Below, piece by piece: positions 38,162-43,402 of a stretch of DNA of 64,000 bases (the first letter of the stretch is position 1; every line of letters starts with the position of its first letter). A program made the translations under genes and the position numbers. The notes below the pieces were generated by a model, which was not told the origin of the DNA, made no database searches, and worked only from the letters and a program-made list of their open reading frames with translations. Source of the DNA: Nocardioides kongjuensis (GTDB lineage: Bacteria; Actinomycetota; Actinomycetes; Propionibacteriales; Nocardioidaceae); the NCBI RefSeq assembly GCF_013409625.1, contig NZ_JACCBF010000001.1, positions 3,475,001 through 3,539,000 of the forward strand, given 5' to 3'.

Positions 38162-38707
38162 ATGGACCCGCGCACGCTGCGCTCGACCTTCGGTCGCTTC
38201 GCGACCGGCGTCACCGTCATCACCTGCCGTACCCCCGACGGCACCCACCACGGCGCGACCGTCACCGCCTTCACCCCGATCTCCCTGGACCCGCCGCTGG
38301 TCCAGGTGGCGCTGACCCGGACGTCGAGGGCGGCCGCCTACCTCGACGGCGCGTCCTTCGCCGTCAACGTGCTCGCCGCCGACCAGGTCGACGTGGCGAT
38401 GCACTTCGCGGGCCGCCCGAGCGCGGACCCGCTGCCCTGGTGCGACGGCTCGGTCGCACCGTCCCTGCGCGGCACGGCGGCCACCATCACCTGCCGCGCG
38501 CACCGCACCGACGACGGCGGCGACCACCTGCTGTTCCTCGGCGAGGTGGTCGACGTCGTGAGCACCGACCGTCGCCCGCTGCTCTTCCACGACAGCGCCT
38601 TCCACCAGATCGGCCGCCGCTCGTCCGACGTCGTCTGGCTCGGCTGCCAGGACGACCCCCACACCAGCTGGTTCGGCGCGCTCGTGCCGGCCGACACCCA
38701 CTACTGA
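38162..38707 (+). CDS. flavin reductase component of a two-component monooxygenase (HpaC-like)
   Basis: A 181-residue protein of the flavin reductase-like FMN-binding split-barrel family. It begins [17 protein letters not shown] and has [13 protein letters not shown] followed by [10 protein letters not shown], the usual family landmarks. It supplies reduced FAD or FMN, using NAD(P)H, to the hydroxylase encoded 13 bp downstream. GAGGAG lies before the ATG. Gene order reductase-hydroxylase with a divergent AraC regulator is typical for aromatic (4-hydroxyphenylacetate or phenol-type) hydroxylation. Confidence 0.88.
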
Positions 38708-38720
38708 GGAGAACCCCGAG

Positions 38721-40310
38721 ATGACCGACACCCTCGCCCCCGAGACCACCTCCCACGACGACGGACCGCCGACCGTCAACCCCGCCGCGGGCTCCCCCGC
38801 CAACCAGCAGACCAACTTCGCCTCCCGGCCGATGACCGGCGACGAGTACGTCGAGAGCCTGCGCGACGGCCGCGAGATCTACCTCAACGGCGAGCGGGTC
38901 GAGGACGTCACGACGCACACGGCGTTCCGCAACCCGATCCGGATGACCGCCCGCCTGTACGACGCCCTCCACACCGGCCCGCACGTCGACGAGCTCACCG
39001 TGCCCACGGACACCGGCAACGGCGGCGTGACGATGCCGTTCTTCAAGACGCCGACGTCGTCGGCCGACCTGCTCAAGGAGCGCGACGCGATCGCGCGCTG
39101 GGCGAAGATGACGTGGGGGTGGATGGGCCGCAGCCCCGACTACAAGGCGTCGTTCCTCGGCACCCTGCACGCCAACAAGGAGCTCTACGCCCCCTTCGAG
39201 GCCAACGCCGAGCGGTGGTACCGCGAGTCCCAGGAGAAGGTCCTCTACTGGAACCACGCGATCATCAACCCGCCGGTCGACCGCAACCTGCCGCCCGACG
39301 AGGTCGGCGACGTCTACATGAAGGTCGAGAAGGAGACCGACGCCGGACTGGTCGTCTCCGGCGCGAAGGTCGTCGCGACGGGATCGGCGATCACCAACTA
39401 CAACTTCATCGCCCACTACGGCCTGCCGATCCGCAAGAAGCAGTTCGCACTGATCTGCACGGTCCCGATGGACGCGCCCGGTGTGAAGCTGATCTGCCGG
39501 ACGTCGTACACCCAGCAGGCGGCCCAGAACGGCACGCCGTTCGACTACCCGCTATCGAGCCGGATGGACGAGAACGACACCATCTTCGTCTTCGACAAGG
39601 TGCTGGTGCCCTGGGAGAACGTCTTCATGTACGGCGACGTCGACCGCATCAACGCGTTCTTCCCGCAGTCCGGCTTCCTGCCCCGCTTCACCTTCCAGGG
39701 CTGCACCCGCCTCGCCGTGAAGCTCGACTTCATCGCCGGCCTGCTGATGAAGGCCCTCGAGACCACCGGCTCCGGCGACTTCCGCGGTGTGCAGACCCGG
39801 GTCGGCGAGGTCATCGGCTGGCGCAACCTGTTCTGGTCGCTCACCGAGTCGATGGCCCGCGACCCCGAGCCGTGGGTCGGCGACGCGGTGATCCCGAAGC
39901 TGGAGTACGGCCTGACGTACCGGATGTTCATGATCCACGGCTATCCGCGGGTCAAGGAGATCATCGAGCAGGACGTCGCCTCCGGCCTGATCTACCTGCC
40001 GTCCGGTGCCGCCGACTTCAAGTCCGCCGAGGTGCGCCCGTACCTGGACAAGTACGTCCGCGGCTCCAACGGCATCACGGCGGTCGACCGGGTCAAGGTG
40101 ATGAAGGCGCTGTGGGACTCGATCGGCACCGAGTTCGGCGGCCGGCACGAGCTGTACGAGCGCAACTACTCCGGCAACCACGAGAACGTGAAGGCCGAGC
40201 TGCTCTTCGCCGCCCAGAACCGCGGCATCGTCGACCAGATGAAGGGCTTCGCCGACGAGTTCCTCGGTGAGTACGACCTCGACGGCTGGACGGTCCCCGA
40301 CCTGTTCTGA
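38721..40310 (+). CDS. FADH2-dependent aromatic hydroxylase, HpaB family
   Basis: A 529-residue oxygenase of the 4-hydroxyphenylacetate 3-hydroxylase/chlorophenol monooxygenase family. The central segment [20 protein letters not shown] and the flavin-cavity region [17 protein letters not shown] are characteristic. [14 protein letters not shown] is another family hallmark, and [19 protein letters not shown] follows. With reduced flavin from the upstream reductase it ortho-hydroxylates a phenolic ring. The exact substrate (4-hydroxyphenylacetate, phenol or another phenol) cannot be told from sequence. The family also includes steroid-ring hydroxylase relatives, but nothing here specifically supports that. 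A hairpin follows. Confidence 0.88.
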
Positions 40311-40355: not shown

Positions 40356-40721
40356 TCAGGCCTCCTGGGACAGCAGGTAGATGAACCCGGCGCACAGCCC
40401 GCCGAACACGATCATCGTGATCGCCGCTCCGGCGAGCATGCCCACGCCCCAGGGCCGGGTGCGCGCACTCGTGAGGAACGGGACCGGAACCAGCAGCGGG
40501 AGCAGGATCCCGCCGATGATCCCGATCGCGACCGGAGTCCCGTCGTAGTCGTTGGCCTGCGTCGAGAACGAGCTGCCGATCGCCAGTCCCAGCAGGGGAC
40601 ACACCACGGCGAGGATCGGCCCGATCAGGAGCCCGCCGAGCAGGTAGCCGAGAAGCTTGTTGGTCGTGTCCGGCGGCCGCTGCGGCGGCGGGAAGGACCC
40701 GGGCGGGAACTGCTGGCTCAT
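40356..40721 (-). CDS. small multi-pass membrane protein, unknown
   Basis: A 121-residue protein. A short proline-rich N-terminus (QQFPPGSFPPPQRPPDTTNK) precedes three or four membrane helices (LLGYLLGGLLIGPILAVVCP, then PVAIGIIGGILLPLLVPVPF, then GVGMLAGAAITMIVFGGLCA). No family motif is recognised. It lies 10 bp downstream of the next membrane gene and may belong to the radical SAM transcription unit. The ATG is preceded by GGAG. Confidence 0.6.
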   Translation of the reverse strand: MSQQFPPGSFPPPQRPPDTTNKLLGYLLGGLLIGPILAVVCPLLGLAIGSSFSTQANDYDGTPVAIGIIGGILLPLLVPVPFLTSARTRPWGVGMLAGAAITMIVFGGLCAGFIYLLSQEA

Positions 40722-40731
40722 CTCGACTCCT

Positions 40732-41046
40732 TCACCTGATCCACCACCACACGCCGACCCCGCCCGCGACGACGAGCGCGCCGAGGTAAGCCAGCACCAG
40801 CCGGGTGTCGCCCAGCAGGCACCGCGACCGGAGCAGCCCGGCCCTGCGGGCCCGGGCGTAGCCGACGAAGCCCAGGGCCGCGAAGCCCAGGAGCGCGACC
40901 GGGCCGAGCAGCCAGCCGAGCAGCGCGACCGTCGCGAACACGCACAGCCGCAGGGGGTCCGGCAGCTCGCTGTCGGCGCCGGCCCGGTCCGTCGGCTCGA
41001 CCCGGGGCGGCGTCACCAGCCGCGGGTCCTGGTCCGCGGCGCTCAC
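40732..41046 (-). CDS. small two-helix membrane protein coupled to the radical SAM gene
   Basis: A 104-residue protein starting at a GTG that overlaps the radical SAM stop codon (GTGA). After a ~30-residue cytosolic part come a long hydrophobic pair of helices (LCVFATVALLGWLLGPVALL, then GFAALGFVGYARARR) and a final helix (LVLAYLGALVVAGGVGVWWW). No domain is recognised. Its tight coupling with the radical SAM and Lgt-like genes suggests it belongs to the same membrane-associated process. Confidence 0.6.
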   Translation of the reverse strand: MSAADQDPRLVTPPRVEPTDRAGADSELPDPLRLCVFATVALLGWLLGPVALLGFAALGFVGYARARRAGLLRSRCLLGDTRLVLAYLGALVVAGGVGVWWWIR

Positions 41047-42617
41047 GGGGCGGTCCGCCCTGTCGCGGTCGAGAGCCTCGTGCGCGCCAACGGCTCCCAC
41101 GCCTGCAGGGCGCAGAAGGGAGCGCACTGGTGCCCGCCGGTCGTCTCGTTGACGGTGGCCACGTGCACGCAGCACTGGGTGAGCCGCTCCTCGATCATCG
41201 TGTTCATGTCCATGAACGGCTTGACCGTCACCCGCAGGACCCGTTCCCCGAGCAGGCGACGCAGCCTCTGCTGCTGACCCGGCAGCCGGGCCGCGGCCAG
41301 GGTGGCAAGGGTGCCGATGCCGAGGTCGCAGGTCTGGCAGATGTCGCGCCAGATGTTCGCCATCGAGGGATGGCTGAGGCTGGACTGCTCCGAGAGCAGG
41401 TCGAGCAGCGAGTCCTTCACGACCCGCCGCAGGTCGGCGGGGATGGCGTCGTCGGCGATCCGGTTGGCCAGCAGGTCGGGCTCCAGGTCGAGCCACTGCT
41501 TGAGCCGCTCCGGGCCGATCAGCGACACCAGCGAGCGCCAGGTGCCGGCGTCGTCGCGGAGCAGGTAGCCGACCGAGCAGCAGTGCGGGTGGCTGCACGG
41601 CAGCGCGGTGAGGTCACGCCAGCCGACGGTGCCGCCGGTCTGCGGACCGAGCCGGGCCAGCACCCCGGTGTGGGTGAGCCGGTCCAGCGGGTCGATGCCG
41701 CTCGAGCGACCACTGCCGAAGACCGGCTGGATCGTCACGCCACCGACGTACGGCGTGTCGAGGGCACGCTTGACCACGAACCCGATCTCGTCGTCGTTGA
41801 CGCCGAGCGCGGCGGTCATGGTCAGCGTCGTGAAGATGCCCCGGCTCGACAGGCGCTCGATCGCGTCCTCCTTGAAGCGCCGGATGTCGGCCCCGCGGTG
41901 GTGGGTCGACGCCTCGGCGCTCTGGCCGTCGTACTGCAGGTAGACCTCGACCCGCTCGCGGTGCCGGGTGAGCAGGTCGAGCAGCTCGTCGTCGCGGGCG
42001 ACCAGCAGGCCGTTGGTGTTGACCAGGATCCGCACGACCGGGCGCCGCGCCACCTCGTCGAGCAGCTCGGCCAGGTGGGGGTAGAGCGTCGGCTCCCCGC
42101 CCGAGAGCATGAGGACGTCGATGCGCCCGTTCTCCCGGGAGATCCGGGTGTCGATCGAGGCGAGCACCTCGGCCAGCGGGGCGACGCTCGCCAGGGCCGG
42201 GGAGGACTCGGCGAAGCAGGTCGGGCACTTCAGGTTGCAGTGGTCGAGCAGGTCGGCCAGCAGGATGCAGGTGTGCTGGGTCTGCATCTCGGGAAGCCCG
42301 TCGGCGTACGCCGCCGGCACGGGAGCGAAGTTGCCGAGCAGGTCGGGGGTGTGGACCTTCGTCGGTGCGGTCCACTGCTCGAGCCAGGTGAGGATCTCGG
42401 GCGACTCGTCGTAGAGCGTGCGGACCAGTCCGTGCCGCGCGCAGCCGCGTTCGAGCCACACCCGGTCGTCACGGACGGCCAGCCACCCGCTGAGGCGCGC
42501 CACCTGGTCGAGGGGCCGGCTCGGCTCCTCCTCGTGGCACAACGGGCAGAACGCGTTGACGTAGCGGTGGATCCGGTCGCCACGCAGCGGCATGCCCGCC
42601 CCGCGGGGCGCCTTCAC
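41043..42617 (-). CDS. radical SAM protein of the MJ0619/Tes-like type
   Basis: A 524-residue protein. The radical SAM cluster motif is CNLKCPTC (C127, C131, C134), followed by LMLSGGEPTLYP. An N-terminal metal-binding module has CPLC (C24/C27) and CARHG (C59, H62). The C-terminal third has further Cys groups (CSHPHCC, CQTCDLG, CCVH, CAPFC) suitable for auxiliary Fe-S clusters. This layout is that of the MJ0619 family. The family includes archaeal tetraether synthase Tes, which joins lipid chains, and was earlier labelled a pterin methyltransferase. GTG 42617 overlaps the upstream stop with GGAG at good spacing; an ATG at 42593 is the alternative. The substrate is unknown, but the membrane-protein context points to a lipid. 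Confidence 0.82.
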   Translation of the reverse strand: MKAPRGAGMPLRGDRIHRYVNAFCPLCHEEEPSRPLDQVARLSGWLAVRDDRVWLERGCARHGLVRTLYDESPEILTWLEQWTAPTKVHTPDLLGNFAPVPAAYADGLPEMQTQHTCILLADLLDHCNLKCPTCFAESSPALASVAPLAEVLASIDTRISRENGRIDVLMLSGGEPTLYPHLAELLDEVARRPVVRILVNTNGLLVARDDELLDLLTRHRERVEVYLQYDGQSAEASTHHRGADIRRFKEDAIERLSSRGIFTTLTMTAALGVNDDEIGFVVKRALDTPYVGGVTIQPVFGSGRSSGIDPLDRLTHTGVLARLGPQTGGTVGWRDLTALPCSHPHCCSVGYLLRDDAGTWRSLVSLIGPERLKQWLDLEPDLLANRIADDAIPADLRRVVKDSLLDLLSEQSSLSHPSMANIWRDICQTCDLGIGTLATLAAARLPGQQQRLRRLLGERVLRVTVKPFMDMNTMIEERLTQCCVHVATVNETTGGHQCAPFCALQAWEPLARTRLSTATGRTAP

Positions 42618-43402
42618 GCGGCCGCTCCGGCCGGCGTCCGGCGCAGCCCGCGATACGCACCGCGTCGCCACTGCCAGCCGATCCGCGCCAGCACCAGCGG
42701 CACCGTCGCGAGCAGGAACAGCTGGGGCCGGGTCAGACCGGCCCAGACCACCTCGTTGCCGCGCACCAGCTCGACCAGGAACCGGAAGACGCCGTAGGCC
42801 GCGACGTACCAGACGAACGTCGTGCCGGGCGGCAGGTCGGCGCGACGCAGCCACCACCACAGCACTGCGAACGCCGCCAGGTGGAAGGCGATCTCGTAGG
42901 CGAACGACGGGTGCAGGGGTACGCCGGCGGCGAGACCGAAGCGGTCGGCGTCGGCCTGGTCGAGCCGCACTCCCCAACCGTGACCGGTGGGGGTTCCCGG
43001 CTTCTCGGTGAGCAGGCAGCCGACGCGGCCCACGGCCATGCCGAGGGCGACGGCCGGCGCGAACAGGTCGCCGGTGCGCACCCGGTAGCCGACGAGCCGC
43101 TTCGTGACGTGCACGCCCAGCCAGGCGCCCACCAGGCCCCCGAGGATCGACCGGTTGCCGTAGAGCCACTGCTCGGGCAGGGATGCGTTGGCCCGCAGGT
43201 CGAGGTGCTGGGCCCAGGTGCCCAGCCGCATCAGCAGCGCCCCGCCGACCAGCGCACCGGTGACGACGTAGACCAACCGCTCGTCGGTCTGCCCGCGGCG
43301 TCGCGCCTCCAGCACGAACACCGTCGCAGCCACGGCCACGCCCAGCCCGACGAAGACCTCGTGGATCCAGGCCGGCCCGAGCGTCAGCTGCATGGGCGCC
43401 AT
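42614..43402 (-). CDS. Lgt-like (prolipoprotein diacylglyceryl transferase family) membrane protein
   Basis: A 262-residue protein with about seven membrane helices and the recognisable Lgt landmarks: ILGGLVGAWLG, GMAVGRVGCLLTE, HPSFAYE (H164) and FRFLVELVRGN (R207, E211, R214). In true Lgt the signature reads GRxGNFxN. Here the asparagine after GR-x-G is replaced by Cys129, and the segment after it differs (EKPGTPTGHGWGV). It is therefore a divergent Lgt relative, perhaps moving or binding a glycerolipid for another purpose. Its stop codon overlaps the start of the radical SAM gene. A housekeeping Lgt is expected elsewhere in the genome. Confidence 0.78.
   Translation of the reverse strand: MAPMQLTLGPAWIHEVFVGLGVAVAATVFVLEARRRGQTDERLVYVVTGALVGGALLMRLGTWAQHLDLRANASLPEQWLYGNRSILGGLVGAWLGVHVTKRLVGYRVRTGDLFAPAVALGMAVGRVGCLLTEKPGTPTGHGWGVRLDQADADRFGLAAGVPLHPSFAYEIAFHLAAFAVLWWWLRRADLPPGTTFVWYVAAYGVFRFLVELVRGNEVVWAGLTRPQLFLLATVPLVLARIGWQWRRGAYRGLRRTPAGAAA

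Follow-up and report, generated by a model that had tools for sequence, protein, structure and literature searches.

Two kinds of lipid-handling enzymes provide the closest described comparisons for the locus reported here. One is the radical S-adenosylmethionine (SAM) enzyme Tes, or GDGT-MAS (MJ0619; PDB 7tol, 7tom). Passages of its structural report (PMC9433317) describe a protein that holds two phospholipids, forms a carbon-carbon bond via a cluster-bound intermediate, carries a rubredoxin-like CX2C...CX2H site, and has Met439 as the labile ligand of a C-terminal auxiliary cluster. Bacterial Tes homologues without known products are already pointed out in the same passages. Models of Mss share the catalytic architecture of Tes, and its pathway partners are Ger and PlsA, according to sections of PMC13274423. 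In Gms, two four-Cys auxiliary clusters are located in a SPASM domain at the C-terminus (passages of PMC11186832). The other kind is Lgt, which binds phosphatidylglycerol and, at the outer side, transfers its diacylglyceryl group onto a cysteine (passages of PMC4728403). With Tes and Mss known, it can be asked in which bacteria lipids with joined tails are produced. Here we describe a four-gene module (L, R, S, and P), combining a Tes-like gene with an Lgt-like gene, in a 64,000-nucleotide stretch of the genome of Nocardioides kongjuensis (NZ_JACCBF010000001.1, positions 3,475,001 to 3,539,000; hereafter the window).

All four genes are on the minus strand of the window. L (42614..43402) starts with ATG and encodes an Lgt-like integral membrane protein of 262 amino acids. 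R (41043..42617) starts with GTG and encodes a Tes-like radical SAM enzyme of 524 amino acids. S (40732..41046), also with a GTG start, encodes a small membrane protein of 104 amino acids with two hydrophobic stretches. The junctions L/R and R/S are both 4-bp GTGA overlaps, in which the GTG of R lies inside the TGA of L and the GTG of S inside the TGA of R. P (40356..40721) encodes a small membrane protein of 121 amino acids and is located 10 bp after S. A preliminary description of this DNA had proposed a three-part system of overlapping L, R, and S. Their coordinates, strand and both overlaps were verified and the tight coupling is conserved, but the number of parts has to be corrected, as P is a fourth gene. 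The third-position GC content of the four genes is 0.93 to 0.98. When they were compared with their counterparts in the loci L021, L037, and L022, the nonsynonymous rate (dN) was below the synonymous rate (dS) in all 12 comparisons, and against each of the 3 loci dN was highest for P. The window genome is a single contig of 5.67 Mb, and its R is 98% identical to that of Nocardioides sp. LHD-245 and 97% to that of Pimelobacter simplex 3E.

The neighbourhood of R was compared among 80 named loci, which are the best 80 of 246 confirmed R relatives and hence the closest relatives. They represent 23 named genera and five named orders, with 11 loci without a genus. In 78 of the 80 loci, L is encoded close to R and on the same strand, in the orders L-R-S (43 loci), R-S-L (24), and L-R with no S found (11). 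The remaining two are contig edges: the contig of L039 begins 14 bases before R, and that of L094 ends in R. S was found in 68 of the 80 loci. The preliminary description had named the lack of a conserved Lgt-like neighbour as an argument against the system; this argument fails because L is conserved next to R. Clustering of open reading frames (ORFs) of at least 70 amino acids yielded three clusters shared by every one of the 80 loci and another found in 30, all at or overlapping module genes in some frame or strand. A wider operon was rejected, as every other cluster is seen in at most 13 loci (e.g., rlmN-like in 13 and frr-like in 12).

L and R also co-occur at the genome level. Among 198 Nocardioidaceae genomes, the same 19 contain both R (at least 79% identity) and L (at least 180 bits), the next-best L score being 53.7 bits, and two further genomes contain only R relatives at 31%. 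Among 296 genomes of the phylum, R (at least 60%) and L (at least 180 bits) are present in the same six. Strong L matches are thus confined to genomes with R in both the family and the phylum sets. Lgt-like proteins 29 to 36% identical to L are encoded by 18 other phylum genomes without this R. Five non-module Tes-like loci showed no L and no S in their flanks of ~8 kb. Beside the non-module Tes-like gene in L117, a P-like match of 17.5 bits was taken as chance, with weak MerT-type matches only. A seventh phylum genome (G203, locus L017) includes a broken R piece with a stop, 46% identical over 133 residues, and no L was found in this draft genome. The Lgt-like gene of the genome G431 (C13:214867-215591) appears as two overlapping matches in different frames, and may be frameshifted or misassembled.

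The pairwise distances of L and R are correlated (r = 0.89, 81 rows) and none of 500 label shuffles reached this value, while shared ancestry alone also raises r. Janibacter HTCC2649 is closer to Knoellia (R 92%, L 87%) than to J. limosus (R 70%, L 57%). Similarly, a Mycobacterium metagenome-assembled genome is 78% identical to the window in both R and L, and 70% (R) and 56% (L) to another Mycobacterium. These similarities suggest the joint transfer of L and R. L, R, S, and P almost certainly constitute one dedicated module.

The N-terminal Cys/His module, the CX3CX2C motif and the late cysteines of R, noticed earlier from the sequence, were all verified. In the alignment, C24-x2-C27 ... C59-x2-H62 of the Cys/His module and C127, C131, and C134 of the radical SAM motif are present in all 84 rows, the late cysteines C341, C346, C427, C430, C482, C483, C498, and C502 in 81 to 84, and C347 in 77. 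The predicted structure of R, modelled on the alignment A3 (39 rows, eight of which are non-module relatives), matches GDGT-MAS along its length; the models of R and L were compared using VIA-align. R thus shares the rubredoxin-like CX2C...CX2H, CX3CX2C, and the overall predicted fold with Tes. In contrast, the N-terminal cluster ligands of Tes (C73, C77, C80, and His, in GCPYDCGLC) have no cysteine counterparts in R, and R resides in a bacterial operon with genes for Lgt-like and small membrane proteins. With regard to the C-terminal auxiliary cluster, cysteines of R align with HQHC, CC, and PFC of MJ0619, a correspondence at the level of the alignment. Met439, the one ligand named in the passages on Tes, is not kept; its place is Lys466 in R in the alignment read by eye.

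By the scores of profiles and folds, TrsS and Tes are the nearest families to R. The best NCBIfam match is TrsS, a radical SAM (seleno)protein (NF045646), with 179.6 bits against a cut-off of 490, and R as TrsS was ruled out by this score. The Tes model (NF045702) gives 131.5 bits against a cut-off of 450. R as a bacterial Tes was ruled out by this curated score, the absent N-terminal cluster cysteines, and the tree. The assignment of R to the Tes family in the preliminary description is therefore upheld for the fold and not for Tes by the curated cut-off. In the phylogenetic comparison proposed there, the tree contained no characterised non-lipid enzyme, and MJ0619, L015, and L016 are long branches with unsure joins. 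The TrsS-like relative L016 (469.7 bits) also lacks the N-terminal cluster motif, as R does. Mss was compared with R by description, as the sequences compared included no identifiable Mss. Viperin, represented by PADLOC models, was rejected since the match is limited to 87 residues of the R core (37.2 bits).

Some relatives of R deserve description. Other actinobacterial Tes-like genes (L009-L014) carry the N-terminal cluster motif of the GCPxDCGxCPxHxQHAC type, and the five of them scanned with the Tes model scored 302 to 331 bits, under the cut-off of 450. One relative, P0136, is listed as a tetraether lipid synthase by the Joint Genome Institute (JGI). In L007 (genome G162), the C-terminal half of R contains an extra in-frame segment, which includes a short repeat.

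L is an altered Lgt. It matches the Pfam model PF01790 above the cut-off, and its predicted structure matches the fold of Lgt (PDB 5azb), but it scores 60 bits against a cut-off of 118.9 for the Lgt equivalog TIGR00544. The equivalents of R143, E151, G154, R239, E243, and R246 of Lgt are kept. Among them, R126, G136, and R207 of L align with R143, G154, and R239, and are present in at least 97% of 81 rows. The arginines described in passages on Lgt (PMC4728403) are also kept. The signature asparagine of GRxGN is a cysteine in 81 of 81 rows; its loss had been recognised earlier, and can now be refined to an invariant pair of replacements, Asn to Cys and Tyr to His. A canonical Lgt scoring better than L is also present in 10 of 10 module genomes tested and in the window genome, and L is therefore an extra Lgt-like copy. 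L as a spare Lgt for lipoproteins is not favoured, given the invariant replacements and the canonical Lgt kept in those 10 genomes. MSMEG_5408, the second Lgt homologue of M. smegmatis, is reported to have Y26H and N146C, as L does (PMC13251419). The words "radical SAM" do not occur in that paper.

S and P are small membrane proteins bearing cysteines. No Pfam or NCBIfam model scored above the cut-off for the proteins scanned (S of the window; for P, seven proteins with Pfam). C35 and C76 of S are invariant in 71 of 71 aligned rows. The positive-inside rule puts C76 on the predicted cytosolic side, because a positively charged loop lies between the two hydrophobic stretches. In 18 loci inspected, the gap from L to R mostly contains a small gene whose product begins with a proline-rich part, has hydrophobic stretches, and bears Gly-x-Cys near its end. 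P of the window has the same features: a proline-rich N-terminus, three hydrophobic stretches, and Gly-x-Cys in the last of them. A P profile, seeded with 10 gap genes and the window ORF and grown in rounds from hits near R only, which favours nearby hits, detected 86 matches near R in 67 loci (65 of the 80 named loci) among 13,789 ORFs. The single other match is on the opposite strand of the module locus L089. The cysteine of P is present in 68 of 76 aligned rows, and in 64 of these 68 a glycine occupies position -2. As a positively charged loop precedes the third hydrophobic stretch, sequence-based topology puts the last helix of P in an in-to-out orientation, with the cysteine towards the outer side.

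The position of P is variable. The orders including a Cys-bearing P are L-R-S-P (17), L-P-R-S (13), R-S-L-P (12), L-P-R (11), P-L-R-S (9), L-R-P (1), and P-L-R (1), and nine loci have two or more Cys-bearing copies. In L082 (7295-7998), a direct repeat of ~30 codons precedes P in the gap between L and R. P-like rows without the cysteine are directly before rlmN in seven of eight cases, and the other, L041_6285, is separated from its rlmN by more than 3 kb. Such a Cys-less gene just upstream of rlmN is seen in L026, L029, L033, L034, L039, L040, and L043, and the window genome also has a Cys-less copy just before rlmN (C1 near 314 kb; L108:5979-7608). rlmN is within 8 kb of the module in 13 of the 80 named loci, and its neighbourhood is likely an insertion spot.

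Downstream of the module in the window, a gene for an HpaB-type 4-hydroxyphenylacetate monooxygenase oxygenase (38721..40310) is convergent with it. Beside this gene is a probable flavin reductase gene, named by eye (38162..38707).

The probable role of the module is to alter either a lipid of the membrane or a protein that bears a lipid. The substrate is rather more probably than not a glycerolipid or a lipid-bearing protein. The reading that we prefer, though tentatively and at somewhat short of an even chance, is that the four gene products act as a single module that modifies a lipid at the membrane, with L as the lipid holder, R as the modifier, and P as the acceptor or carrier. At the outer side of the membrane, L would hold or present a glycerolipid. 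R would reach the inner face, perhaps with the help of S, and could use 5'-deoxyadenosyl radicals to create a bond at one of the acyl chains of the L-held lipid. The cysteine of P, predicted to lie in the outer half of the last helix, might then accept or carry the modified lipid like an internal lipobox. That this cysteine is the acceptor is doubtful when judged from the sequence. It can also be speculated that the altered Lgt puts diacylglyceryl on the internal transmembrane cysteine of P, or on its own C129, and that R then joins or crosslinks the tails, which would produce a protein with a joined or membrane-spanning lipid anchor; this more specific version is quite improbable.

Several facts weigh against the preferred reading. 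H14 of L is at the place of the canonical Tyr26 and C129 at that of Asn146, both in 81 of 81 rows, and the window L has Leu at the place of H103, or Trp, as do at least 90% of 37 rows. Six residues are absolutely required in E. coli Lgt (Y26, N146, H103, R143, G154, and R239), and a protein with Y26H and N146C is presumed to have low Lgt activity (PMC13251419). The lost H103 is weakened as a special mark of L, because Actinobacteria are reported to have Trp there anyway (PMC13251419). No cysteine was found at the three places of the N-terminal cluster of Tes in the module rows of the alignment (the window, L052, and L095), and the clade of R is separate and deep in the tree, set off by a very long branch. 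S was not found in 12 of the 80 named loci, including the cut locus L094, nor in the module locus L122, and P was not found in 15, again including L094. The cysteine of P is absent in 8 of 76 rows, its motif is not a classical lipobox, and the last helix is internal. P as the acceptor is read from its anatomy, and is to be doubted on that ground too.

R could instead couple or alter the tails of ordinary phospholipids, like Tes and Mss, with L presenting or sensing phosphatidylglycerol and with S and P being structural. Among solved structures, that of the tetraether enzyme is the closest to R both by sequence and by predicted fold, and ester-linked phospholipids fit the pocket of GDGT-MAS according to passages of two reports (PMC9433317; PMC13274423). 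However, the L paired with R resembles in its predicted fold an enzyme that lipidates proteins, and small proteins with cysteines are encoded alongside. The six papers found on such lipids and genera do not mention Nocardioides or Microbacterium, which is weak evidence. The synthesis of a free lipid is rather unlikely on balance. Slightly less probable still is a modification of protein or peptide, in which R makes a radical cross-link such as a thioether on P or S, like the maturases of ribosomally synthesised and post-translationally modified peptides (RiPPs), and L lipidates or holds the substrate.

The possibility that R acts on a soluble small molecule, and that L is its catalytically dead membrane partner, has the lowest probability and is very unlikely. 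PF23545 (HMPTM zinc ribbon) matches R, some R relatives are annotated as 7,8-dihydro-6-hydroxymethylpterin dimethyltransferase, and residues on which E. coli Lgt depends are missing from L. The pterin role could, however, not be corroborated by the authors of the MJ0619 structure (PMC9433317). The polar residues matching the Lgt cavity are invariant in L, and a dead scaffold need not keep them.

Both folds are known. No description of such a module was found in the full-text literature, mostly open-access, as judged by titles, the starts of abstracts, and some passages. Some of the papers found contain a radical SAM term together with a diacylglyceryl transferase term (e.g., PMC3877243, PMC12010503, PMC7641849, and PMC8939145). 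The module, the families of P and S, this clade of R, and the invariant Lgt changes as a mark of the module appear to be undescribed in that literature, and the chemistry may prove to be a joining of tails on a scaffold already known.

The module appears to be an undescribed system of soil actinobacteria, whose host genera are largely aerobes. It links a distinct clade of the Tes fold to an altered lipid transferase across 23 named actinobacterial genera in the best 80 loci. It is directly testable, with four small genes and culturable hosts. If the module does act on lipids or lipoproteins, it would represent a new envelope modification and would give a role to a second, non-canonical copy of Lgt.
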